Positions 6,985 through 39,719 of a stretch of 42,772 nucleotides of DNA are shown one piece after another. The stretch is from an uncultured Erysipelothrix sp. (GTDB lineage: Bacteria; Bacillota_I; Bacilli_A; Erysipelotrichales; Erysipelotrichaceae), in the NCBI GenBank assembly GCA_947631935.1, contig CANRNG010000007.1, positions 1-42,772 on the forward strand, written 5' to 3'. Both the position numbers and the translations under genes were made by a program. The notes under the pieces are model-generated. The model was not told the DNA's origin and searched no databases. It was given only the letters and a program-made list of their open reading frames with translations. Position 1 is the stretch's first letter. Each line of letters begins with the position of its first letter.

Positions 6985-9900
6985 ATGATAAAAATATTTA
7001 GGAAGTTAAGAAAGGTTTTTGAGAATATCGTTCAATTAAGTTTAAAGAAAGTTTATAAAGCAACTGCAATATTTGTAGTTGCTTTTTTAGTCTTCTTTAC
7101 AGCTGTCATACCTATAATTGCTGCATCAAGAGTTACAACCACTCCAAATATAAGTGGCACGAATGTAACTGTGAGATGGAATCAAAATACGTCATTTTAT
7201 TGGGTAGGTAATTATCCAGCAATTAATGTTGATGGTGTAGTAGCATACTGTATTGAACCGTTGGTTACGGGAGTACCTACCAACTCAGCATCTGCAACTA
7301 ATTTAGACTCGTTATCTCAATTAAGAGTTATGCACGGGTATTCTCAAGTAAATAGTATTAATACCTCACAAAAAAGACAGGTTTCTTTAATTGCAAATTA
7401 TGGATATGGATACCCTGGCCATAATACAACAGCTTATAGATGGGCGACCCAAGTTCTTATTTGGGAAGAACTAGGGTTTACTGTAACGGGCGGCATAAAC
7501 ATATCCACGGAGAAAGCCAATATATCCGCACTTGTGAACAATCACCGTAGCGTACCGTCATGGAATAAAACAACAAGAACGGTTAAGAACGGAGATATAG
7601 TTGACTTATCTCATAGTTCAATATCGATGTTTAATATTACAACGATTAGAGGATTAACCGTAACGGAACATTTAGGCAATACTTTAAAAGTTAGAGTAAC
7701 AGATGCAACAAACGCATACTTAAGGTTAGATAAAAAACAAGGAATCACCACAGGTTCTTCTTTAATCTATACTGATGGTACTACCCAAAGAGCGGGTGTT
7801 TTTGGGCTTTATGATCCAGTAGAGTCGATATTAAATTTCAAACCCGCTACTGGAAATATTACACTTGAAAAGCAAGACGTTGCTAAAAAAACATATGCTA
7901 ACGTTGTTTTTGAGTTATCACAAAACAAGTCAACCATTCTGGGGACATACACGACAGGTTCAAATGGAAAAGTAACTGTTTCAAACCTTGAGGCAGGAAC
8001 CTATTATGTAAGAGAAAAATCAGTGCCAGAACCTCTTGTATTAGATCCGTCATGGAAAACAATCACTGTTACTGCTGGAAATACGACGGCATTCTTAGCA
8101 GTGAACGAAATTAAGCCAGTGGCAACCATTGGAATTAATAAAGTTAGAATTGATACTAAAAAAGCGTCTCAAGGCTTAGACGTAGAAGTATGGTATGACA
8201 AGGTTCAAAATTATAACTGGAATTTAAGCGAATACAGTAATACTCCTATAAAAATAACACTTACAAATAAAACAACTGGCAAAGAAGTTCTGAGTAAAAC
8301 ACATACAATTCAGAATTTCCCCACAAGTGAAGTATACAAAGTACCGTCAAATTTATTGAGTGTCAACAATAAGTCTAATTATGAGGTTTCGCTTTCGGTT
8401 GCATCAAATGTTTCGCATCAAATAGAAATTGATAAATCACCTATAAACACAGATGGCTACACTGCTTCTGAAGCTTTGATTGAGCAAAAAGCACAACATG
8501 GACAAGATGTCCATGTAGAACAAATTATTCGTACAGAGCGAGAATTTGGAAAATCGATGCAAACTTGGAAAGAAAGTTTCACCATTGATGTTCCTGTGAT
8601 GAAATCACTCCGCGCAGGAAGAGGGTATGCTTATGATACTCTTGCTTCTTATTCGAATGAGTTGAATCAATCCCATTCTTTCGAGCTAGTGTTGAATTCA
8701 AGTAATGAATTGGTAGATGGTAATTGGTATCAGCGTGGAAGCACTCATGCAAAAATACCTCTTCTTTTAAAAGAAAATTCAACTTATGTTACGCCACGTG
8801 TTGCTGCCAAAAGAGTTGTTAGTGGTGATGCAATATCAGGTGATCACTATGATAGTTTATCATCTTCAGAAAAATTGAAATATAGAGAAGGTGGCCATCA
8901 GATTTTAACTCCGATGTGGTCAACCGATGTTGGGATTTATGATTTATATTTAGAGACATCAAGTATTGGGGTCAATAGTTTTAGGGTAAAACTGAATGAC
9001 GAAATTGAAATCTATGCTTACATGTTCGGATGGTTTGACGAAAACGGAACATCACCAACCATAAAAGAAGATGAAACGATTATCTCTCCAATTATGGCAG
9101 TTGATCGCGATGGCAATGGCATGATTGACATGTGGGATGAATCGGGTGTTCCTGATAACTGGGGTGTTGAATTAGCAGATGGGACTAAAGTCCTTACCCT
9201 TGTTGAAAAGCAATTTTTTGATATTCTTGGGCCTGCCACTGTCTCATATGATTTAAACGGTGGGTCTGGATCTTTTCCTGGACTTGAAGTTACAGAGGGG
9301 GATTTATATCAAGTAAACGCCTCCACCCCTACAAAGAACAATTTTATTTTTGGTGGTTGGACAAACAGTGTTGATGGTAAAACATATCAACCTGGAGAGT
9401 CTTTCATAGTTGAACACGATACAAAGTTAACAGCACAATGGAAACAAAATGTTTATACTGTTACTTTTAATCTTAATGGTGGTGGTGGGTCAATTGCATC
9501 ACAAACTGTGGAGTATGGATCCAAGGTTATTAAACCATCAAATCCATCTCGTACTGGATATTCATTTACAGGATGGAGTCCCGACATCAATCAGCCTATT
9601 ACAACAAATACAACCTTTGTAGCACAATGGTCAATTAACACATATAGCATTACTTATAATGCAAATGGTGGTAGTGGCGCTCCAAGTGCGCATACCAAAA
9701 CACATGATCAAGCTAACCAAAAAATAAGTTCAACTGTACCCACTAGAACAGGTTACACTTTTGTCGGATGGAATACCGTTGCAGACGGTAGTGGTACGAG
9801 TTACGCTTCGGGTGCCAATTGGACTGTTAATCAAAACTTAACACTATATGCAAGGTGGTCGCTTAATACATATAGCATTACTTATAATGCAAATGGTGGT

Positions 9901-10710
9901 AGTGGAGCTCCGTCATCCCAAACAAAGGGGTATGGAACAAACATATCCTTAAGCACAGCTAAGCCCACTAGAACAGGTTACACATTTACTGGATGGAATA
10001 CTTCAGCAAACGGTAGCGGTACGAGCTATGCTTCGGGTGCAACGTATACAGGAAATGCAAACGTTACGCTCTATGCACAATGGTCTGCAGACACATATAG
10101 CATTACTTATAATGCAAATGGTGGTAGTGGCGCTCCTGGTGTTCAAACCAAGACACACGGCACAAAAGTTGCTTTAAGTGCTACAAAGCCAACCAGGGCA
10201 GGATATACTTTTGCTGGGTGGAATACTTTAGCGAATGGTAGTGGCACGAGCTATGCATCTGGTGCAACGTATACAGGAAATGCAAACGTTACACTGTATG
10301 CAAAATGGACTGCAATGGCTGTAACCACACATACAAAAACTGTCTCAAAAGCATTTAGTAATAACAGTGCATACACTTTAACGTTGAAGTATACTTCTCA
10401 CTACCAAGGCACAATCTTGTTAAAGGTTGAGTATGAATACTATGTACGAAAATCAAGTGGTAGTGGATTCTTTTCAAATGTCTCTGCAAACAACTCTTAT
10501 AGTCAGACTGTAGCAGGCACGAAAACCAGCGGTTCTGCCACCTATGATTTTAGAGTACCACCACAGTTCAGTAATACAACATTTAATAATACAAATAAAC
10601 GTACTGGAACAAGAACAATTAATAGTACGTCATTTACAAACAGTATTACTGTAACGGTTTCTTTAGCCAATCTTGGTAGTGCGACTGTTAGTGGTAATTT
10701 TAATAAGTAA
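6985..10710 (+). CDS. Giant thioester adhesin with SpaA-like and InlB-type repeats
   Basis: The protein has 1241 residues. A long basic leader and hydrophobic segment (about 28-47) form the signal or anchor. A thioester (TQXA-type) domain follows: the YCIEP cysteine (C89) and the glutamine of ATQVLIWE (Q156) can form the internal thioester used by Gram-positive adhesins to bond host or partner proteins covalently. A SpaA/Cna-B-like domain spans about 290-375. Near residue 706 is an EF-hand-like loop, DRDGNGMIDMWDE. Five InlB B-type repeats run from about 750 to 1110 and are nearly identical in DNA over the last three. A unique C-terminal domain ends the protein. There is no LPXTG or C-terminal anchor, so it is held by its N-terminus or released. 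It lies just upstream of the pilus cluster, which suggests a mating or attachment role. Confidence 0.85.
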   Translation: MIKIFRKLRKVFENIVQLSLKKVYKATAIFVVAFLVFFTAVIPIIAASRVTTTPNISGTNVTVRWNQNTSFYWVGNYPAINVDGVVAYCIEPLVTGVPTNSASATNLDSLSQLRVMHGYSQVNSINTSQKRQVSLIANYGYGYPGHNTTAYRWATQVLIWEELGFTVTGGINISTEKANISALVNNHRSVPSWNKTTRTVKNGDIVDLSHSSISMFNITTIRGLTVTEHLGNTLKVRVTDATNAYLRLDKKQGITTGSSLIYTDGTTQRAGVFGLYDPVESILNFKPATGNITLEKQDVAKKTYANVVFELSQNKSTILGTYTTGSNGKVTVSNLEAGTYYVREKSVPEPLVLDPSWKTITVTAGNTTAFLAVNEIKPVATIGINKVRIDTKKASQGLDVEVWYDKVQNYNWNLSEYSNTPIKITLTNKTTGKEVLSKTHTIQNFPTSEVYKVPSNLLSVNNKSNYEVSLSVASNVSHQIEIDKSPINTDGYTASEALIEQKAQHGQDVHVEQIIRTEREFGKSMQTWKESFTIDVPVMKSLRAGRGYAYDTLASYSNELNQSHSFELVLNSSNELVDGNWYQRGSTHAKIPLLLKENSTYVTPRVAAKRVVSGDAISGDHYDSLSSSEKLKYREGGHQILTPMWSTDVGIYDLYLETSSIGVNSFRVKLNDEIEIYAYMFGWFDENGTSPTIKEDETIISPIMAVDRDGNGMIDMWDESGVPDNWGVELADGTKVLTLVEKQFFDILGPATVSYDLNGGSGSFPGLEVTEGDLYQVNASTPTKNNFIFGGWTNSVDGKTYQPGESFIVEHDTKLTAQWKQNVYTVTFNLNGGGGSIASQTVEYGSKVIKPSNPSRTGYSFTGWSPDINQPITTNTTFVAQWSINTYSITYNANGGSGAPSAHTKTHDQANQKISSTVPTRTGYTFVGWNTVADGSGTSYASGANWTVNQNLTLYARWSLNTYSITYNANGGSGAPSSQTKGYGTNISLSTAKPTRTGYTFTGWNTSANGSGTSYASGATYTGNANVTLYAQWSADTYSITYNANGGSGAPGVQTKTHGTKVALSATKPTRAGYTFAGWNTLANGSGTSYASGATYTGNANVTLYAKWTAMAVTTHTKTVSKAFSNNSAYTLTLKYTSHYQGTILLKVEYEYYVRKSSGSGFFSNVSANNSYSQTVAGTKTSGSATYDFRVPPQFSNTTFNNTNKRTGTRTINSTSFTNSITVTVSLANLGSATVSGNFNK
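8496..8516. repeat. 21-bp palindrome inside the adhesin gene
   Basis: The arms are ACATGGACAA and ATGTCCATGT around G, with one mismatch. It is translated as QHGQDVHV near residue 505, in the same frame as the copy in parB. It is far from any start codon. Confidence 0.85.
9640..10318 (+). repeat. Tandem 225-228-bp coding repeats in the adhesin
   Basis: Three units start at 9640, 9868 and 10093, each opening with ACATATAGCATTACTTATAA. They encode InlB B-type repeats with the core YNANGGSGAP and the end LYA(R/Q/K)W. Near-identity at DNA level implies recent duplication or conversion, so copy number may vary between strains. Confidence 0.85.
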
Positions 10711-14889: not shown

Positions 14890-15462
14890 ATGGTTTCGGC
14901 AAAAGTTGCCAATAAAATGATAAAAAACTACTATGATCGAGTGGGAAATGACTCATTAAGAATTAAATTTACAAAGGTTCTTAATTTTTTGGTCGATCAA
15001 AAAGTAAGCAAGCAGGTGTTGTATGAGTTCTATCATGAATTCGGGCATCATACCAAAATAGTTGAATTAAAAGGAACAAGTTCATATCTAAAAGTGGACA
15101 TGTTCCTTTTTCGTTTTAAACAAGACAGAGTTTTTGTATCGAACCAAGATAATAACGCATCTTTTTGTTTAGGATACTTTATAGATAGAGATCCAAAAAC
15201 ATTTATTAATAATTTTGAAAAGGTGGCTTTTGAGGGGATGAAGTTTAGTCAATCTCTTTTGTTGTTCAGTATATCAAATTCTTTGTCGGGAGCTGTATTT
15301 AACATGGTTAATTCAGCGTATTGGCCTTTCTATAGAAAAGGAAGCGACCAATACTTATATAAATATCACTGGACTCTTGGTAGAGCCATTGAATTTAATT
15401 TAAAGTCTATTGAATATGAAAAAAAACTAGAACAAACGATTCTAGAATATAGGGAGGTTTAG
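14890..15462 (+). CDS. Hypothetical protein of the pilus cluster
   Basis: The protein has 190 residues and no signal or membrane segment, so it is probably cytoplasmic. It contains EFYHEFGHHTKIVELKG near residue 50. HEFGHH resembles the HExxH metal motif, but the Glu is followed by Phe-Gly-His as in HEFGH zincins, and no third ligand is evident. The FGHH stretch could be chance. It lies between the pilin-like gene and the VirB2-like gene with very short gaps, so it is likely to be needed for the apparatus. The family is not known to me. Confidence 0.6.
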   Translation: MVSAKVANKMIKNYYDRVGNDSLRIKFTKVLNFLVDQKVSKQVLYEFYHEFGHHTKIVELKGTSSYLKVDMFLFRFKQDRVFVSNQDNNASFCLGYFIDRDPKTFINNFEKVAFEGMKFSQSLLLFSISNSLSGAVFNMVNSAYWPFYRKGSDQYLYKYHWTLGRAIEFNLKSIEYEKKLEQTILEYREV

Positions 15463-15463
15463 T

Positions 15464-15772
15464 ATGAAGTTACTACACATGAAATTATTGCGTATAAAAA
15501 TAATGACACTATTGGCTTATACCCCAACCGTTAACGAGGGAGAAGCAAGAAATTTGTTTTCTGGCTTTATGACACCTTTAACAAGTTTTCTACTGTTTGG
15601 AATTCCACCTTTGACAGTGGTCGCTGGTATGGTCGCAGGTTGGAGATACTTTCAGTTAACTGAAGAGGAAAGAGAGCAACGTCCACTTGGCAAATCTCTA
15701 ACTTCAATTGTTAAGTGGGCAATTGTTCTATATGCATTTCCGGTAATCTTACGCGTGTTTGGTTTGTATTGA
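15464..15772 (+). CDS. VirB2/TrbC-like two-helix membrane protein
   Basis: The 102-residue protein has two hydrophobic segments (about 38-60 and 82-100) joined by a charged loop (YFQLTEEEREQRPLGKSL), preceded by a polar N-terminus with possible signal-like start. AGGGAGG is the ribosome site. It stands immediately before the VirB6-like gene, the usual place of the small VirB2/TrbC-type or Maff2-type protein of Gram-positive conjugation clusters. Assignment is by topology and place. Confidence 0.5.
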   Translation: MKLLHMKLLRIKIMTLLAYTPTVNEGEARNLFSGFMTPLTSFLLFGIPPLTVVAGMVAGWRYFQLTEEEREQRPLGKSLTSIVKWAIVLYAFPVILRVFGLY

Positions 15773-23457: not shown

Positions 23458-23553
23458 ATGAATGACAAAGAGAGAGTATATGCAGAATTAAACGAATATG
23501 ATTTTATTGATGAGTCTATATTAGATGGGGAAGAGGATGGAGATGGGCCATGA
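23458..23553 (+). CDS. Short acidic protein overlapping the ArdC gene
   Basis: This 31-residue frame follows GAGGGAG and overlaps the next ATG (ATGA). It is extremely acidic (DFIDESILDGEEDGDG). Such a small acidic peptide could imitate DNA or only couple translation of the next gene. I see no homologue. Confidence 0.35.
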   Translation: MNDKERVYAELNEYDFIDESILDGEEDGDGP

Positions 23554-26030
23554 CAAAAAGATATAATAAGACAATAGAAAAAGCACAAGACGAGTTGCTG
23601 GAAACTATACTTGGATCTTTAAAAGAAAATAAATTGCCTTGGCAAAAACCATGGAAAGGTAATTTTTATTCTCCATATAATCCAACAACAAACAAAGAGT
23701 ATGAAAAAACAAATAGGTTTACTCTATTGATTACCCAATTTGTAAATGGTTGGGAAGATCCGCGCTGGATGACATATAAGCAAGCGCAGGCCAAAGGATA
23801 TTGGATTAAAAAAGGATCTGTAGCAACCACACTTTACTTTGCTCAATGGGTATATCAAGATACAGGTAAGCCACTTAAAAATGAGGATTATTTTGGTTTA
23901 TCAGATAAAGAAAAAGATGAGCTAAGAGCAAAGCTCGTATTAAAATCGAAACCCTTCTATGTATTTAACGCAGCACAAATTACTGGATTACCAGAATTGG
24001 AGAACGAACCTATTGTGCCGTTGACGTTCAATAATACTTTAGCAGAAGAATTCGCCAACAATCTCATCAATAAGATGAATTTAAGGGTTGAACACCTCGG
24101 TACATCGGCATACTACATACCAAGCGAAGACAGAGTTGTTATGCCCCCAGATTCACTGTTTGAAGACGAACAATACTATTACAGTACTCTTATTCATGAA
24201 TTGGGTCATTCAACGGGGCATGAATCGCGATTGGCGCGCGATTTAAGCGGTAAATTCGGGTCTAAAGAGTATGCTTTAGAGGAACTTAGGGCAGAGATGG
24301 TTTCGGCTCTCATGGCGTTAGAAATCGGTTTTGAAAACAGTCCAGAACATATTATTAACCATCAGGCTTATTGCCAAAGTTGGTATAAAATTCTGGAAGA
24401 CAATCCCAAAATTTTGATGGATGCAATTCGAGATGCACAGGATATTCGGAAATATATGATCGAAACTGGCGAGCTTGATTTAATAATTGAAGCAGACAAA
24501 AATAATCAATTAAAAGAATTTAATAAAGTATACTATGAATTCGTTGAGCGTGAAGGCCTACCTGTCCGGGTGGAGGGTCATATCTATACATTAATTAAAG
24601 GATCAAAAGATGGAGTTAGATTTGAAGTTGAGTTTGATACTGTCAATTTCGTGGAAAGACATAGATTGATGGATGATTATATTTCGTTCACAGATGCAAT
24701 TTCATACAACTTAAATATGTATACTGAAGCTTTAAGAGAAAAACTATCTTATGATGGTTTATTAGAAAAAAGTGAAACTGATATAAAGTTTACAACAGAA
24801 GATTTGGTACATATTAGACAGATGATTGCTTACACCAATAACGATTTAGGTGATGTTATTGATAAAATGCTTCAACCTTATCTTGAAAATGGCAGCATTC
24901 ATATTGATTATGAATTAATCGCAAAGAATAAGTTTGATATTGTCAGTGAAATAGATCATGAAACTATACAATACTTTCAAAAACATGGAATTGACACTGC
25001 TAAAATTGAAAAGGATTTAAAAAACAAAGAGCAAAACAAACAAAAAAATAGAATTCCTATAGATCAATTAAAAGCAGAAGTAAGTATAATCGATTTTGCA
25101 GAAGAAGTTTTTGGTCTTAAATCAGTATCTCAATCAGGTAATCTTTATCAGTTAGTCGAACATGATTCTTGTAAAATATATCGAGATAATTCTTTTGTTA
25201 GGTTCTCTCAAATTCAAGCGAATGGAAAACCTGTTGGTGGAAGTGTTATAGATTTTGCAATGCATTTCGGTGGTTTGGAATTGTCTGAAGCGGTAAAGTT
25301 GGTTGAAAATTATTATCTTCAAAACGGGAAAACCCAAAGAATATTTACAGCCATTCAAAAAGACGAAATTTTAAACTTGGAGTTGCCTGAAAAAGAAAGT
25401 CATTCAAAAAATGTTTATGCTTATCTTACCAAAACTAGAGGTATTTCTGCATCGGTAGTTAATAGATATTTAAAAGAAGGACTTTTATACCAGGAAGCTA
25501 AAAAGGCAAACTGCATTTTTGTTGGAAAATTAGGACAAGATGTTCTATACGCAACAAAAAGAGGGACTCGAACAGACAGTAAATTTATGGGCGATGTGCC
25601 AAAATCAATAGTCGAGGTGGGGGTATATCTAGATAATGGTTCATCTACACTGATTTTAACAGAAAGTGTAATTGATCAGATGTCCTACCAAGTTTTAGAA
25701 AAGAATCCAACAAATTACAATTACTTAAGTACTAACGGAGTAGCCAAAGCTATGAATGTACTAAAATTTCATTTGGTAAAAAGAAATGAGAACGTTGAAA
25801 AGGTTATCCTTGCATTTGATAATGATGACAAAGGCGAGGAGGCAACATTAGTGTGTGCTGAGTTTTTATCAAAAGAGTATCCAGAAATCGAACACTTTGT
25901 TATCAGCCCCAAGAATAAAGATTGGAACCAAGATCTTCAGGAATTAAAGTTTGGTAAGATTAACGAAAAAAAAATAGAAGACCATTTAACACAACAGGTG
26001 TTAGATGAACATGTAATGACTAAAAATTAG
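23550..26030 (+). CDS. ArdC-like antirestriction/metallopeptidase/Toprim polyvalent protein
   Basis: This is a large, 826-residue protein. Residues 1-150 form the ArdC N-terminal ssDNA-binding domain (LPWQKPWKGNFYSPYNP; WMTYKQAQAKGYWIKKGS). Next is a zincin domain with HELGHSTGHESR (H216, E217, H220) and the later EELRAEM. A middle part (about 330-430) resembles the YodL/LPD-type domains. From about 510 a DUF3991-like primase-associated region (GSVIDFAMHFGG) leads to a Toprim domain with LTESVIDQMSYQ and FDNDDKGEEA. Iyer and colleagues described such mosaic polyvalent proteins in phages and ICEs. They enter the recipient and protect or process the incoming strand. Confidence 0.85.
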   Translation: MTKRYNKTIEKAQDELLETILGSLKENKLPWQKPWKGNFYSPYNPTTNKEYEKTNRFTLLITQFVNGWEDPRWMTYKQAQAKGYWIKKGSVATTLYFAQWVYQDTGKPLKNEDYFGLSDKEKDELRAKLVLKSKPFYVFNAAQITGLPELENEPIVPLTFNNTLAEEFANNLINKMNLRVEHLGTSAYYIPSEDRVVMPPDSLFEDEQYYYSTLIHELGHSTGHESRLARDLSGKFGSKEYALEELRAEMVSALMALEIGFENSPEHIINHQAYCQSWYKILEDNPKILMDAIRDAQDIRKYMIETGELDLIIEADKNNQLKEFNKVYYEFVEREGLPVRVEGHIYTLIKGSKDGVRFEVEFDTVNFVERHRLMDDYISFTDAISYNLNMYTEALREKLSYDGLLEKSETDIKFTTEDLVHIRQMIAYTNNDLGDVIDKMLQPYLENGSIHIDYELIAKNKFDIVSEIDHETIQYFQKHGIDTAKIEKDLKNKEQNKQKNRIPIDQLKAEVSIIDFAEEVFGLKSVSQSGNLYQLVEHDSCKIYRDNSFVRFSQIQANGKPVGGSVIDFAMHFGGLELSEAVKLVENYYLQNGKTQRIFTAIQKDEILNLELPEKESHSKNVYAYLTKTRGISASVVNRYLKEGLLYQEAKKANCIFVGKLGQDVLYATKRGTRTDSKFMGDVPKSIVEVGVYLDNGSSTLILTESVIDQMSYQVLEKNPTNYNYLSTNGVAKAMNVLKFHLVKRNENVEKVILAFDNDDKGEEATLVCAEFLSKEYPEIEHFVISPKNKDWNQDLQELKFGKINEKKIEDHLTQQVLDEHVMTKN

Positions 26031-26041
26031 GAGGAAAAAAT

Positions 26042-26380
26042 ATGTCAGCAAAAATGTTTGTAGTTGGTAATATTACAAAAGAATTAGAGTTAAAAGAAGT
26101 AGTAGGAAGTGATGGAACCAAAAAGAACGTTTCAAATTTTACGGTAGCTTGTCGCGACGGAAAGGGATCGGTTTATGTTCAAGTAACAGCATGGGGAAGC
26201 GCAGCTGAAGTAATAAAAGAAAACACTACTAAGGGTTCAAAAATTGAAATTTATGGTAGATATAAAGTCTCTTCTTACAAAACAAAAGATAAAGAATCAG
26301 AACAAAGACACTATGTAGAAGTTGAGTCTTTTGAATTTTTAGATCCGAAGCCTGATAAGCAGATTGGTCTTGATGTTTAA
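26042..26380 (+). CDS. ssb: Single-stranded DNA-binding protein
   Basis: The 112-residue OB-fold protein has MFVVGNITKELELKEV, FTVACRDGK, YVQVTAWGSAAE and KIEIYGRYKVSSYK, which follow the SSB pattern. AGGAGGAAAAAAT gives a strong ribosome site 12 bases after the ArdC-Toprim stop. It lacks the usual acidic tail (DDDIPF). It ends in IGLDV, so recruitment of host partners via the tail may be lost, as in some plasmid SSBs. It would coat the transferred strand. Confidence 0.85.
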   Translation: MSAKMFVVGNITKELELKEVVGSDGTKKNVSNFTVACRDGKGSVYVQVTAWGSAAEVIKENTTKGSKIEIYGRYKVSSYKTKDKESEQRHYVEVESFEFLDPKPDKQIGLDV

Positions 26381-26586: not shown

Positions 26587-27297
26587 ATGAATATTTACGA
26601 TGTAGACAGAAATTATACCGAATATCTTCAAAAAAAAGAAATTGAGGAACGGGGTTTTACTACAGTACCTAATTTCGATTATGAAGATGTAGGTCGAGAA
26701 AAGAAATTTGTTTCTGGCCCCGTATTTGAAATTGACAATATTAAATATTATGTAGGTGCATCTCATAAAAAAATTTTAAATGATGATTGCTATCCAATAT
26801 ATTTTGAAAAGGAACCAGGGATAATTAAAGGAACTTTGAGATTTCAATACATGATTCCGATAGCACCCAGTGCCGTTAAATTTAGAAACATAAGAATGGA
26901 ACCTAGTAAAAGCAGAAGAAATTTCTTATGGCAATATTTGAAAAGTATCCAAAAAAACAAGCCTTTTATTATGGAAAAGAGTAATGAAGTCTATTTGAAA
27001 CAGATATCTAACCAAATTCCAGAAGATCTAAAGGATCGATTCAATCAATTCAAATTTCTAGAGTCAAAGATGATCCAATACGAATTAAATTACAAATTAG
27101 GATTACTGAATACTGAAGAAGAATTACCCGTTGTTTATAATGAAAATCTTCAACAGCATATTGTATTATATGAGGGATACGGAAGACCAGTTGAACCTAA
27201 ACACTTGAAAGATTTTAATTTACTTGCGCACACAGTGGATTTTGATTTAGAAGAAATGGAGTCTGTTGAAGAATATTTAAATGAGATTGAGTTGTAA
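26587..27297 (+). CDS. Hypothetical protein
   Basis: This protein has 236 residues and no signal or membrane segments. It has a middle basic stretch (FRNIRMEPSKSRRNFLWQYLKS) and an acidic C-terminus (DLEEMESVEEYLNEIEL). The ribosome site GAAAGGA lies 14 bases upstream, with a five-codon frame (MNLPK, 26573-26590) ending in a TGA that overlaps the ATG of this gene, so it may be translated by coupling. It lies between ssb and the oriT-like region. No family is recognised. Confidence 0.6.
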   Translation: MNIYDVDRNYTEYLQKKEIEERGFTTVPNFDYEDVGREKKFVSGPVFEIDNIKYYVGASHKKILNDDCYPIYFEKEPGIIKGTLRFQYMIPIAPSAVKFRNIRMEPSKSRRNFLWQYLKSIQKNKPFIMEKSNEVYLKQISNQIPEDLKDRFNQFKFLESKMIQYELNYKLGLLNTEEELPVVYNENLQQHIVLYEGYGRPVEPKHLKDFNLLAHTVDFDLEEMESVEEYLNEIEL

Positions 27298-27305
27298 ATT
27301 TCAGG

Positions 27306-27506
27306 GTGTTGAATAACAAATTTCTTACACAAAGTCGTTTTTTGTTTGGGTTAAAGCAAAACTTGAATAAAAAAAGAAAGAGAGCAAAGAAGATTAATTA
27401 TAAAAATAGGAAGAAAAACCGTTTAAGTTTCCCACCCGTTTTTCGAGTAGAAAAACGGGGCGTGATTTTGCATCAGATTTACAAATGGAGACTTACTAAA
27501 AATTAA
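27306..27506 (+). CDS. Doubtful short basic protein
   Basis: A 66-residue frame from GTG is very Lys/Arg-rich (LNKKRKRAKKINYKNRKKN), which is what purine-rich DNA would give by chance. It has no clear ribosome site. A 10-bp hairpin (CCCGTTTTTC with GAAAAACGGG, 27435-27459) lies in it. It is more likely a non-coding or oriT-related stretch than a gene, but I cannot exclude a small nucleic-acid-binding protein. Confidence 0.2.
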   Translation: MLNNKFLTQSRFLFGLKQNLNKKRKRAKKINYKNRKKNRLSFPPVFRVEKRGVILHQIYKWRLTKN

Positions 27507-27542
27507 GATTTGAATAATACGATAAATCTAAGGTGAGAATTA

Positions 27543-27583
27543 AGCAGGTACAACAGACCATTGTGGTAGTACCTGCTTTTTTG
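27543..27583 (+). terminator. Intrinsic terminator
   Basis: AGCAGGTAC pairs with GTACCTGCT (9 bp), with an inner ACCA/TGGT stem, followed by TTTTTTG. It isolates the oriT-like region from upstream genes. Confidence 0.75.
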
Positions 27584-27633
27584 TTTTTATCGTTGAAATA
27601 ATGATATTTCTTTAAAAACGAGCATAAGGGGTT

Positions 27634-27765
27634 TTGGCGTACAAAATGTACACCAACCCAGGAGAACAAGTGGACATAGTCCACTTTTTAAAAGGTTTAT
27701 GTTTGGCGCACAAGTATAAAAATCTTGGCGCATAGTCGAGTTTATTTGGCGCACATTTGGCGCAC
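27634..27765. other. Candidate oriT or operator with phased repeats
   Basis: Upstream of the accessory protein and relaxase genes, TTGGCG repeats occur five times. One (27634) is in an inverted repeat TTGGCGTACA/TGTACACCAA (27634-27656). Four more copies of (T/C)TTGGCGCA(C/T) start at 27702, 27724, 27745 and 27756. The last four steps are 22, 21 and 11 bp, close to whole helical turns. An AAGTGGAC/GTCCACTT palindrome (27668-27686) lies between. This is what binding sites of a ribbon-helix-helix relaxosome protein next to nic would look like. Confidence 0.5.
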
Positions 27766-27794
27766 AGTGATTTTACGGTAGAAGGAGTAAAAAT

Positions 27795-28238
27795 ATGACA
27801 AGAAAAACTGTTAGAAAGCATTTGAGAATTACCCCTCAAATGGAAGACAAAATTCAGCAATTAAAAAGTGCAATAAATGCAGAAAATGAAAAATATGGAA
27901 AACCAGAAGTGAGGGACACAGAAGTAATCGAAGCAGCTATAACCTTTTTTCACTCTCATACTTTTGGAAAAGATGTCATGGAATCGACTGTAGATCAACT
28001 TGAAGTTATTATTTCATCTTCTATAAAATTGACGATGAGAAATTGGTGGGATGACTTAGCTAAGGCAATGAATAGATTAAATTACAATAGTGATAAAACT
28101 TTAGATTCGCTTTATATTTTGATGATGTCTTTGGATCTGATTCCAAACGATCAACAAAAAATGAACGACTTAATTAAAGCAAGTGAAGTCTACCATGATG
28201 TAGTCGACGTCGCTATAAAGAAAAAGAATGAAGGGTAG
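27795..28238 (+). CDS. Ribbon-helix-helix-like relaxosome accessory protein
   Basis: The 147-residue protein starts after AGAAGGAGT. Residues 1-40 (TVRKHLRITPQMEDKIQQLKSA) resemble a MetJ/Arc-type ribbon-helix-helix, and RDTEVIEAAITFF adds a helical segment. The rest is helical. RHH proteins placed directly before relaxase genes bind oriT and guide nicking, and often repress their own operon. The phased repeats just upstream are the natural target. The identification is from length, position and N-terminal pattern. Confidence 0.55.
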   Translation: MTRKTVRKHLRITPQMEDKIQQLKSAINAENEKYGKPEVRDTEVIEAAITFFHSHTFGKDVMESTVDQLEVIISSSIKLTMRNWWDDLAKAMNRLNYNSDKTLDSLYILMMSLDLIPNDQQKMNDLIKASEVYHDVVDVAIKKKNEG

Positions 28239-28247
28239 GTGAATTAA

Positions 28248-29546
28248 GTGAGTGTAGATTTAGCTACAAACTTTTCCTTTATGGTTCACGGAAAGGAACA
28301 TCGATCTCAAGGTGGTCGAAGGAAAAATGGACTGGTGTCGTCTAAAGATTTGATTGGTTACTTGCGTTACACACGCAGGAAGGACTCTAGAGAACCTGTT
28401 AGAGATAATCTTGAAGTAGAAGGGGGATACTTCGAATATACCAGTCGCGATTCTGCATCAATTAAGACTTTCACTAACTATGGTTGGTTGACTGCAGAAA
28501 AGGACATAGACAACTTTAAAACTGAAGTGTCCAATAGTTTTAATAATGAGGGTAATATAGCTTGGTTACCGATTCAAGCCTATAAGGATTATATGACTGC
28601 TGCTCAATATGGACTATTTCATGCTGAAGACTATGCTGCAATTACTGGAAAAGTATTAAATAAGTTCTTTAAATATGTAAACTTAGACCCTAATAATATG
28701 TTGTGGTGGATGGATTATCACAACGATAAAAAACATCCACATGTACACCTTGTGTTTCTTGAAAGAAACCAAACTAGAACGCGAGGGAAATTTACTCAAA
28801 AAGAATTAGACTATTTTAAAGGGGCTTTATTCCAGGAAATGAAGTTAAGAGAAATGATCATAACAGATACATATCAATTGAACTTGGACGTAATAAAAGA
28901 AAACTCCAACGATAAAAAAATGCTTAGGGAAGTGATCAGTGAAATGATTACATTACGAAAAGATGATGAAATAAAAAAAATGTTAATCAATTTAAGAATG
29001 AAGCTTCCATCTAAAGGGCGGTTGCAATATGGTGCATCACACATGATTCCGTACAGGTCGGAGATTGATAAAGTGGTCGATACGATATTAACCCACCCGA
29101 CCATCAAGGGCGATTATGAAACCCTAATTACTAAATGGCAGTTTTTGGATAGTGAAAAATCTAGAGAATTGAAAACAACCTATACTGCAGTTTTTGATGC
29201 TGAAGATGGAAAGCTTAGAAAAAATGTGGCCAATGAAATTTTGAGAAGCATGAAAGATATAGAAAAAACAAATGATAAAAACATAATTCGTAGTTTCGAT
29301 GAAGAATCTGAAAAGCAAGTTGAAACTGAAGATGGTCAAAAGAATGGCTACAAGAAAAGTGATCATCAAGAAAACTCAAAATTAAACCCGTTAGAAGAAT
29401 CAAAGAAACCTAATGAAACCGAATATATTAAATCATATGCCAATCTCCAAGTGAAACAAGCTTTAGATAAAATTGAAGCTGAAATTGAACATGAGGTAGA
29501 ACAGGCTCAATATGATTACTACGATGGAAAGGATTTTTATATATGA
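28248..29546 (+). CDS. MobL/MobP-type relaxase
   Basis: GTG start after GGTAGGTGA. The protein has 432 residues. An N-terminal Tyr-rich part (LIGYLRYTRRKDS; GYFEYTSRDSA) holds candidate catalytic tyrosines. The three-histidine metal box is HNDKKHPHVHLVF near residues 160-172. These features match MobL/MobP relaxases of Gram-positive plasmids and ICEs. The enzyme cuts one strand at nic, stays bound to the 5' end and is led to the channel by the coupling protein, whose gene overlaps by 4 bases. The C-terminal acidic tail may serve recognition. Confidence 0.85.
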   Translation: MSVDLATNFSFMVHGKEHRSQGGRRKNGLVSSKDLIGYLRYTRRKDSREPVRDNLEVEGGYFEYTSRDSASIKTFTNYGWLTAEKDIDNFKTEVSNSFNNEGNIAWLPIQAYKDYMTAAQYGLFHAEDYAAITGKVLNKFFKYVNLDPNNMLWWMDYHNDKKHPHVHLVFLERNQTRTRGKFTQKELDYFKGALFQEMKLREMIITDTYQLNLDVIKENSNDKKMLREVISEMITLRKDDEIKKMLINLRMKLPSKGRLQYGASHMIPYRSEIDKVVDTILTHPTIKGDYETLITKWQFLDSEKSRELKTTYTAVFDAEDGKLRKNVANEILRSMKDIEKTNDKNIIRSFDEESEKQVETEDGQKNGYKKSDHQENSKLNPLEESKKPNETEYIKSYANLQVKQALDKIEAEIEHEVEQAQYDYYDGKDFYI

Positions 29547-31675
29547 TAAAAAAGATATTTTTTATAGTATTGGGTGCAATCTTTGTATATTATTCACTTG
29601 CATTCATTATGCTCAATATTGGGTATTTCGTGTTGTACTTTAAAGCCACAATTCAATCGATTGAAGACTTAACAAATTTCCCGTTACAAACTAATTTGAA
29701 TTTACTAAAAACCCCAGAATACACTTTATATCAAAGAGTAGTGTTTTTGGGAACGATATTTATTATTGCTCTGATATTGGTCAACAATCTTTCGACTTTC
29801 TTTGAAAGCAGAGGGGTCTGGTTAAAAAACAAATATGAGAGAGCAAGCTATTCTAAATGGTTAACAAAAATTCAGAGAACGCGCGGGTCGTTATTTGTAA
29901 AAGTAAGTAAAAAAGGGAATGTAGTTTATACTGGTGTAGAAGAATTGTTTATAAAGATGAAAAATCCAATTGCAAAACTTCAGAACAAATATGTAGAATG
30001 GAGAATGTTGCCAGACACTAAGAAATGGAACACAATACCGACATATATTAACAATGGTGAAAAGACAAGAATATCTGGTGGTGTACCAGTTATGGCTCTA
30101 AGGAAATATCTTTTGTTTGGAAAGTTTAATAGGCTGTGGTATTTGACAGGAGATAAGCATTCCCTTTTTGTAGCGTCTACAGGTAAAGGTAAATCCATGA
30201 CCTTTGTTTTACCTATGATTTTCAGCTATATTGCAGCGGAAGAAAACATGGTTATTCATGATCCAAAAGGTGAACTATACGCGCATACCAAAGATGCCTT
30301 AAAGGATGCAGGCTACAAAATCGTAACAATAGATTTTGTACGCCCCGAGTGTAGTGATGGATGGAATCCGTTGGATGTGCCTTATAAAGCGTGGAAAGAG
30401 GCCTTGATAGATGCTGAGGAAAGGTTGATGCAATCCCATGATCTGGATATCCAAGGGAACTTTATTGAACGCTCTAAAGGAGAGGTTATCAAGAAAAAAG
30501 ACCTCTATAAACACGCAGAGTTATCTGAAGCAGTTGAACAGGTGTTAGATATCGCTCGGGCGATGAGTTTTGAAGAAGATGCAAAAAATCCATATTGGCA
30601 CGAAGGTGCTGGAGATATGATTGCGGGATGTTCTCTATTTATGATGGAAGAGGGAAACGAAGACTATGTAAATTTAACAAGTGGACGATACTTAATTCAG
30701 TTAGGCGATGAAGACGGAAAGGGGACTCTTTTAAAAAAATATTTAAACGAGAATAGAGATGTTGATGCACCTTCGCGTTCTAAATTAGACACTTACTTAA
30801 CTGCTGAAGGAGTTACTAAATCAGGATTAAAGTCAGTCTTTAATAATAAGATGTCATTAGTTACAGCAACGGATGCAATCGCAAGAATGACCTCAAAAAG
30901 TACATTTGATATGAGAGATGTCTTTACAGAAAAAACTGCAGTCTTATTAATGACACATGATGAAAAGTCAACATACTATCCTTTGGTAACTATGTTCTTT
31001 AAACAACTCTATGAAGTTGGAATTAAAGAATCAAGAAAAAATCCCATGCGAAGATTAAAGATTCCAATGAATTGGGTCATCGATGAGTTTGCTCAGTTGC
31101 CAGAGATTAAAGACATTGGCCCAATTTATGGTGCCGCAAGATCCCGCGGTGTGCGAATAAATGCGTTTATACAATCTTTTTCTCAGTTAGAAGAAAAATA
31201 CGAGAAGAATGTATCGAACATTATCGAAGATAACTCAACAAATGTTATCTACATCGGATCCATGACAACCGAAGCACAAGCGCACTTTAGTGATATTGCT
31301 GGAGACGAGCTTGTATGGGATAAGAAGAAAAAAGATTTTATTACCAGACCTTTAATAACTAAGACAAGGTTATCAAAAATGGAAAAAGGTCGATCACTCA
31401 TTAAGACATTAGAATGGGATCCCTTCATGTCTAAGTTACCCCCATTTACTAGATACGTTCATTACCGTAAACCAGATTGGGATAAGGAAGTTAAACCTCA
31501 AGAGAAGGTTAAATTCTTTAATATTAAAGAGGCTTCTAAAACTAAACTGAATAAAAAACTTTCTAAATTAGGAAGCAAGCGTTTAGAAGTAAATAATTTT
31601 AATGAAATTGATACAAACCAGATCATCAATAATAAAAAGTTAGAAGATCGAGGCATGATTAAAATTCAAGATTAA
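29543..31675 (+). CDS. virD4: VirD4/TraG-type coupling protein
   Basis: The protein has 710 residues, with two N-terminal membrane segments (about 8-30 and 70-88). Walker A is ASTGKGKSMTF near residue 212, followed by DPKGELYAHT. Walker B is NWVIDEFAQLP near 510, and RSRGVRINAFIQSFSQLEEKY is the conserved box after it. It is the ATPase that links the relaxase-DNA complex to the VirB4-based channel. The gene overlaps the relaxase stop and ends at a strong terminator, so it closes the transfer operon. Confidence 0.93.
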   Translation: MIKKIFFIVLGAIFVYYSLAFIMLNIGYFVLYFKATIQSIEDLTNFPLQTNLNLLKTPEYTLYQRVVFLGTIFIIALILVNNLSTFFESRGVWLKNKYERASYSKWLTKIQRTRGSLFVKVSKKGNVVYTGVEELFIKMKNPIAKLQNKYVEWRMLPDTKKWNTIPTYINNGEKTRISGGVPVMALRKYLLFGKFNRLWYLTGDKHSLFVASTGKGKSMTFVLPMIFSYIAAEENMVIHDPKGELYAHTKDALKDAGYKIVTIDFVRPECSDGWNPLDVPYKAWKEALIDAEERLMQSHDLDIQGNFIERSKGEVIKKKDLYKHAELSEAVEQVLDIARAMSFEEDAKNPYWHEGAGDMIAGCSLFMMEEGNEDYVNLTSGRYLIQLGDEDGKGTLLKKYLNENRDVDAPSRSKLDTYLTAEGVTKSGLKSVFNNKMSLVTATDAIARMTSKSTFDMRDVFTEKTAVLLMTHDEKSTYYPLVTMFFKQLYEVGIKESRKNPMRRLKIPMNWVIDEFAQLPEIKDIGPIYGAARSRGVRINAFIQSFSQLEEKYEKNVSNIIEDNSTNVIYIGSMTTEAQAHFSDIAGDELVWDKKKKDFITRPLITKTRLSKMEKGRSLIKTLEWDPFMSKLPPFTRYVHYRKPDWDKEVKPQEKVKFFNIKEASKTKLNKKLSKLGSKRLEVNNFNEIDTNQIINNKKLEDRGMIKIQD

Positions 31676-38426: not shown

Positions 38427-39719
38427 ATGGGAAGAATGAAAACAGCAATATATTGTCGTGTTTCCACTGATGATCAAGCAGAACATGGGTATAGTCTACG
38501 CGATCAAGAAAGAAGTATAAGAAAATACATATCGTTGTACGAAGATGAATTTATTGACGAGATTGAAACATACATTGATGATGGTTTCTCAGCAAAAAAT
38601 CTAGAGAGAAGAGATATCCAAATATTGTTAAAAGATATTAAAGATGGAATTATTTCCAAAGTTGTCGTACATAATTTAGATCGGCTTACCAGGAGTATTA
38701 TGGATCTGATGTTTCTGATTGAGTATTTTGAGAAATACGACGTAAAATTATATAGTTTAAAGGAAAAAATTGATACTGATACGGCCATTGGTAGATTTTT
38801 TGTAAGTGTTATTGTTTTAATATCTCAGTGGGAAAGAGAAGCTATCAGCGAGAGAACAATTAGGGGTATGGATCAGTCTTCTTTGGAAGGTAATTATGTA
38901 AGAGGTATGCCACCATTTGGATATGAGTTGATTGATAAAAAATTGGTAATAAATGATAAAAAGGCAGCAATTGTAAAGCAAATTTATACGATGTACTATT
39001 TTGAGGAAAATAGTATCAATCAAATTTATCATTACCATGCTTCGAACCATAATGACTTTAATTTTATATGGACATATGACAGAGTGAGAAGGGTTCTAAA
39101 CAATGAAATTTATACTGGTTTATTTAAAAACAAAAGATTAGAAATACGTAATCATAGTCCAGCTATAATTAGCGAAAAATTATTTAAGGAAACCCAGGAG
39201 ATGTTGAAAATTAAAAACAGATACAATTCTCTTGGATTTATATTTGGAAGAAAGTGTTATAATTCAAAAACGAAGGAGAACCTTGTTTTAGATAGTACTA
39301 AGAAGCCAAACAAAACATATTATTACTATTATGATAGAAAAGAGAATATTAGAATTAATGAAGGTCTGTTGGATTCACAGGTAGGTAAATGGATGAATGT
39401 ATACTTCAAAGAGAGAGTAAATGAGATCATAGTAAAGAAGATATCTGCTATTAATAGGCAAAATTTAGAGATTAAATTTGTTGAAGAGTTAATGATGATT
39501 GGTGCGATTACTAAAGAATACTATCTTAGTGCGATTAATAAATTATCAAACGTAGCAAAAAATAGAATTTACGATATAGAAGAATTACGAAATAACATTC
39601 AGTACTGGGAAGATTTAACCAGGAATGAAAAAATAAAATCGATTAAGTATTCTGTTGATAGAATTGAGATTAACCTATCTACAAAGTCAATCGAAGAAGT
39701 GTTTTTCAAAGTTGAATAA
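38427..39719 (+). CDS. int: Large serine recombinase (integrase)
   Basis: Start after GGAGGGTTAA. The 430-residue protein has the resolvase domain AIYCRVSTDDQ (catalytic S13), LDRLTRS near residue 90 and FVSVIVLISQWERE, then a recombinase domain (GMPPFGYELI). A coiled-coil end with IEFVEELMM follows. It is shorter than most (usually 450-550), and the zinc-ribbon part (GRKCYNSKTKENL...) keeps only one Cys, so metal binding seems lost. Such enzymes insert and excise ICEs and phages without a tRNA target. Its place at the right end of the element fits this. Confidence 0.88.
   Translation: MGRMKTAIYCRVSTDDQAEHGYSLRDQERSIRKYISLYEDEFIDEIETYIDDGFSAKNLERRDIQILLKDIKDGIISKVVVHNLDRLTRSIMDLMFLIEYFEKYDVKLYSLKEKIDTDTAIGRFFVSVIVLISQWEREAISERTIRGMDQSSLEGNYVRGMPPFGYELIDKKLVINDKKAAIVKQIYTMYYFEENSINQIYHYHASNHNDFNFIWTYDRVRRVLNNEIYTGLFKNKRLEIRNHSPAIISEKLFKETQEMLKIKNRYNSLGFIFGRKCYNSKTKENLVLDSTKKPNKTYYYYYDRKENIRINEGLLDSQVGKWMNVYFKERVNEIIVKKISAINRQNLEIKFVEELMMIGAITKEYYLSAINKLSNVAKNRIYDIEELRNNIQYWEDLTRNEKIKSIKYSVDRIEINLSTKSIEEVFFKVE

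Follow-up and report, generated by a model that had tools for sequence, protein, structure and literature searches.

A candidate origin of transfer with helically phased specificity sites before an RHH-like gene and a MobL/MobP3-like relaxase gene in Erysipelothrix

The window analysed here is a stretch of 42,772 nucleotides from an uncultured Erysipelothrix sp., one whole contig of its genome. Genes of T4SS type (secretion ATPase, TrbL, VirB4-like ATPase and M23 hydrolase) lie upstream of a region in which an array of short repeats precedes a gene for a 147-aa protein, a relaxase gene and the gene of a VirD4-type coupling protein (Table 1). The order given in an earlier sequence-only reading, with the 147-aa gene and then the relaxase directly after the repeats, is correct. 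The relaxase gives profile matches to SmpP and RelLS20, while its score with NF041499 (MobP3) is 109.5 bits against a cut-off of 150. Two other genes likely belong to the same element: a large surface protein with SpaA and Listeria-Bacteroides repeats (6985-10710) as cargo or adhesin, and a large serine recombinase (38427-39719) as integrase.

Upstream of the repeats lies a gene for a ToxN-type toxin (26587-27297; PF13958, 4e-19), on the side predicted to lead during transfer. No ToxI repeat array or Rfam match is recognisable upstream of toxN, and its antitoxin RNA may be divergent or missing. Two terminator-like hairpins, at 27435-27459 and 27542-27578, stand between toxN and the candidate oriT, within the 200 bases that are predicted to be transferred first, and could also be active on the single strand. 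The interval proposed earlier for the oriT, 27543-27794, does contain the repeats, but it also takes in the second of these hairpins, which is outside the repeat system.

Table 1. Coordinates of the candidate oriT and of neighbouring genes in the window
Feature	Position	Strand	Sequence or evidence
ArdC / zincin / Toprim protein, predicted first-transferred side	23550..26030	+	
Single-stranded DNA-binding protein (SSB), predicted first-transferred side	26042..26380	+	
Predicted oriT nic core	27620..27631	-	5'-CCCCTTATGCTC/G (slash, predicted nick); 12 bases identical to pWBG749 core (PMC4652767)
Inverted repeat beside core (IR2 equivalent)	27628..27659	.	GGGGTTTTGGCGTACA-AAA-TGTACACCAACCC
Specificity site, core-side arm of inverted repeat (ossB-like)	27634..27643	+	TTGGCGTACA; position as ossB45 of pWBG745
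Degenerate inverted copy, distal arm of inverted repeat	27647..27656	-	minus strand TTGGTGTACA; read from sequence
Linker, inverted repeat to hairpin	27660..27669	+	AGGAGAACAA; GAACAA kept in most relatives (alignment)
Conserved oriT hairpin	27668..27686	.	AAGTGGAC-ATA-GTCCACTT
Specificity site 1 (ossA-like)	27703..27712	+	TTGGCGCACA; inverted-repeat centre +64
Specificity site 2	27725..27734	+	TTGGCGCATA; inverted-repeat centre +86
Specificity site 3	27746..27755	+	TTGGCGCACA; inverted-repeat centre +107
Specificity site 4	27757..27766	+	TTGGCGCACA; inverted-repeat centre +118
147-aa RHH-like relaxosome accessory protein, predicted site binder	27795..28238	+	position and alignment with relatives, some weakly matching RHH_1
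MobL/MobP3-like relaxase, H-P-H-V-H motif	28248..29546	+	PF18555 2e-14, above gathering; NF041499 2e-31, below cut-off
VirD4-type coupling protein	29543..31675	+	PF02534 7e-36

The locus was compared with about 20 relatives, among them E. aquatica, Erysipelothrix sp. HDW6A, Breznakia and Holdemania. On the plus strand the core position of the window reads GAGCATAAGGGG, the reverse complement of the pWBG749 nic core, and the fetched pWBG749 sequence has CCCCTTATGCTC on its core strand, identical to the window over 12 bases. The minus strand from 27631 to 27619 reads CCCCTTATGCTCG, with CCC 5' of the core as in pWBG749. The core common to pWBG749, pMG2200, pMC189, pHTbeta and pGL5 is CTTATGCTCTT, with nic within CCTTATGCTCTTACGG (O'Brien et al. 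2015, PMC4652767); nine of its 11 bases are contiguous in the window (CTTATGCTC) and the last two differ. At this position nine loci of the relatives carry TTATCCTG or TTTATCCTG; other loci have TTATCTTG, TTATGCTC or a similar sequence. The MOBP nick consensus is (C/T)ATCCTG(C/T) (PMC3772185). Its hexamer, as in RP4 and VirD2, stands at the core position in nine relatives, while the window departs from YATCCTG/Y in having ATGCTC in place of ATCCTG. By alignment, the nick is predicted between 27620 and 27619 on the minus strand. Neither this core nor the minus orientation had been noticed in the sequence-only reading, which had proposed the oriT from the repeats and the palindrome; both of these are present.

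Next to the core lies an inverted repeat whose letters differ among relatives with pairing largely kept; this variable repeat is not column-aligned across them. Behind it follows the perfect palindrome AAGTGGAC-ATA-GTCCACTT, described earlier and the only exact one in the window. It had been taken as likely to be a separate site. We assign it to the candidate oriT because its stem is conserved, with compensatory changes, its covariation score was reached by none of 500 shuffles, and sliding the partner abolishes the signal. The stem has 8 pairs and a 3-nt loop; across 15 loci, pairing is kept in 95% of cells, and changes on both sides occur at 6 of the 8 pairs. As an ICE-wide regulatory motif the AAGTGGAC palindrome was rejected, with only partial matches at 15092 and 15670. 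These imperfect palindromes (15092-15110 and 15670-15688, 3 mismatches each) lie 0.6 kb apart within transfer genes. A search of the 42.8-kb window for the core together with an inverted repeat and an 8-bp hairpin with a 3-nt loop gives a single hit, against none in 20 shuffles, and the whole unit folds as single-stranded DNA with z of -6.2. Hairpin-forming inverted repeats 5' of the core are thus present in the window, as two stem-loops and not as the IR1-IR3 branched fold.

Beyond the hairpin, the four TTGGCGCA copies start 22, 21 and 11 bp apart, exactly as first described, and the fifth copy reported in an inverted repeat is TTGGCGTA at 27634. The consensus of the specificity sites is TTGGCGYACA. 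Two or more TTGGCGCA were found in 0 of 5000 dinucleotide shuffles of the 108-bp stretch, against four observed, so the clustering is not due to chance. No second array of specificity sites exists in the window's own genome. The sequence-only reading had put all copies on one face of the helix; this holds for four of the five, the copy in the inverted repeat being out of phase. For the window's four copies alone phase coherence is weak (p about 0.02). Among the relatives, the 29 distances from one site to the next group around 11, 22 and 32 bp with a best period of 10.85 bp, and these distances are kept even where the site letters differ. At 10.5 bp they have a mean cosine of 0.59 (Monte Carlo p about 1e-5), a value to be read with the half-site motifs chosen by eye, gaps within one locus not independent, and some 12-13 bp gaps representing both arms of a palindromic site. 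Preferred site positions are +64, +74, +85, +96, +107 and +118 from the inverted-repeat centre. Helical phasing, for which the window by itself gives weak evidence, gains support from the relatives as far as the downstream copies are concerned.

Each relative shows letters of its inverted repeat again on the far side of the hairpin: TTGTCCGACA in E. aquatica (where the sites are TGTCGGACA), TTGTAATACA in Holdemania, TACGTA in Breznakia, and TTTGTTAACA, TTTGTACTACA, TGTTTACA, TTTTGTATACAC and more elsewhere. The pairing of each inverted repeat with its own downstream stretch was matched by 0 of 50,000 random pairings of 17 loci, picked to drop near-duplicates (the test was also run with 15 loci). 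Two loci, G096 and G121b, fit this co-variation poorly. In the window, the inverted repeat differs from its own downstream sites by one mismatch (TTTGGCGTACAA/TTTGGCGCACAA), which is modest against its own shuffles (17/400). One genome, G124, carries four oriTs of the window type (L071, L072, L073 and L075) with four different specificity sites. This is consistent with orthogonal address tags, in an assembly of 220 contigs with 6% contamination that may be composite.

Which protein reads these sites? The label RHH-like, given to the 147-aa protein from the start, is reasonable, but the window protein itself has no RHH match in Pfam, PDB profiles or Foldseek. Its AlphaFold models show helices at 14-34 and 41-57 and no ribbon strand. 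Four of ten distant homologues match RHH_1 with E of 0.002-0.09, below cut-off, and distant homologues align over an RHH-like pattern. In pWBG749, SmpO binds ossA and ossB (PMC8136818, PMC4652767). We consider it unlikely that the sites are bound by the relaxase itself and not by the accessory protein. Relaxases of this broad group are known to bind inverted repeats next to nic, RP4 TraI being the established case (PMC3772185). However, in two loci of one genus (G121 and G134) relaxases that are 80% identical go with different sites, while the ribbon residues of the accessory proteins differ (KVLGFRF, KTTSIRF), and it is SmpO, not the relaxase SmpP, that sets mobilisation specificity in pWBG749 (PMC4652767). 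Six loci with a V(L/M)SFRF ribbon have TGTTTACA in common even though their accessory proteins are down to 43% identical; site classes also track relaxase branches, so that half-site and relaxase phylogeny are partly confounded. The correspondence between ribbon and sites in one genus points to the accessory protein as the binder that reads them.

The TTGGCGCA copies might also be operators only, used by the accessory protein to repress its own gene together with the relaxase operon, with the oriT elsewhere or limited to core and hairpin. They end 29 bp before the start codon of the 147-aa gene, and relaxosome proteins of the RHH type, for instance TraM and possibly SmpO, control their own expression (PMC8136818). 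Still, a matching site lies in the inverted repeat that adjoins the nic core, its letters change together with those of the downstream copies, and the stretch holds no sigma-70-type promoter above chance, which makes a purely regulatory function quite improbable. It should be noted that operator and oriT roles are not exclusive and both are possible. An array of iterons for partition or replication (parC- or oriV-like) is barely credible. Phased direct repeats do stand beside an RHH-like gene, and phased repeats with a spacing of about 11 bp are also bound by RHH proteins of partition systems. Against this reading, the genes that follow code for a relaxase and a coupling protein, there is no adjoining gene for ParM/ParA or Rep, and the nic core and hairpin are conserved.

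The candidate oriT of the sequence-only reading gains strong support from the nic core, the compensatory hairpin, the co-varying sites and the position before the RHH-like gene and the relaxase. Very probably, a chromosomal conjugative element has its oriT at 27620-27767, read on the minus strand, and an RHH-like protein on phased sites recruits the relaxase there. The 147-aa protein would bind the TTGGCGYACA sites, of which the core-side arm has one and the stretch past the hairpin four, and the whole-turn spacing of these four would line up its oligomers on one helix face. This complex would load the MobL/MobP3-like relaxase, which would recognise hairpin and core and nick TTATGCTC/G; its predicted target on the minus strand is CCCCTTATGCTCGTTT. 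The 5' end would then carry the ToxN, SSB and ArdC/Toprim side into the recipient first. The accessory gene is possibly autoregulated.

Since the predicted nick is on the minus strand, DNA of lower coordinates (toxN, SSB, ArdC/Toprim) is predicted to enter first. The window and four relatives have SSB and/or ArdC/Toprim genes on the side predicted to lead. In pWBG749 the core points the other way with respect to the relaxase, and there too the ArdC-like and Toprim genes are found on the side of the core. Leading regions with many genes of this kind are already known (PMC11541004).

Among known systems, the pWBG749 family of Staphylococcus shares with the window the identical CCCCTTATGCTC core, a hairpin and a variable inverted repeat beside the core, a matching specificity site both in the core-side arm and further away, a small accessory gene adjoining oriT and relaxase, and a homologous relaxase superfamily. 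The orientation of oriT relative to the relaxase gene, in contrast, is inverted between the two systems, and the window has four extra sites on a helical lattice where pWBG749 has one ossA. The site distance of 69 bp (27634 to 27703) is slightly outside the 65-67 bp of the pWBG749 type, the accessory protein has 147 aa versus 84 aa for SmpO with no detectable sequence match, and the relaxase is MobP3-like, not MobP2. Judged by the features that can be tested in sequence, all of which are found here, the window follows the same logic as a pWBG749-type oriT, with more sites and a fixed helical geometry. Within the comparison set, one oriT-like unit (L020) is inverted, as in pWBG749, and Erysipelothrix sp. 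HDW6A (L003 / L037; apparently also G165) has a tandem pair of small RHH-like genes separating oriT from relaxase. The resemblance to pLS20 (Aux1/Aux2 and RelLS20, the MOBL founder) lies in the MobL relaxase domain, the RHH-like accessory gene upstream and the repeated oriT motifs, whereas its nic GCCGG/CTTTT and surroundings differ, the window core being of pWBG749/RP4 type. The RP4/VirD2 MOBP nic region is resembled by window relatives in which TTATCCTG, of the YATCCTG consensus, stands beside an inverted repeat. It differs in that ATGCTC or ATCTTG takes this place in the window and in some of the relatives, and the relaxase is MobL-type.

The window's genome encodes a second conjugation relaxase, a true MobP3 (L050; G000:C16:16079-17092), and no oriT of the window type is present in the 1.5 kb upstream of it. 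At true MobP3 relaxases above cut-off the architecture was not detected, and the claim is therefore limited to the window subclade. Viral contigs contained no relative of the window relaxase, and plasmids contained one distant relaxase and no oriT-like DNA. For the subclade, we give an even chance to a general rule: a clade of conjugative elements in which one fixed nicking unit is combined with interchangeable address cassettes (RHH-like protein and half-sites) on a constant lattice with a step of ∼10.8 bp, its anchor point lying 64 bp from the inverted repeat, with letters free, geometry fixed and several elements per cell kept orthogonal.

Our analysis provides a predicted oriT, nick position, strand and protein-site pairing for an unstudied group of conjugative elements in Erysipelotrichaceae, whose members are gut and animal bacteria, and joins three oriT types that were described separately: pWBG749, RP4-like nick and MOBL. 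The short repeats look like an address tag, differing between relatives while the cutting site stays similar, which hints at how elements of this kind may recognise their own DNA. If the address-cassette rule is true, oriTs, cross-mobilisation and oriT mimics would be predictable from sequence in this clade.
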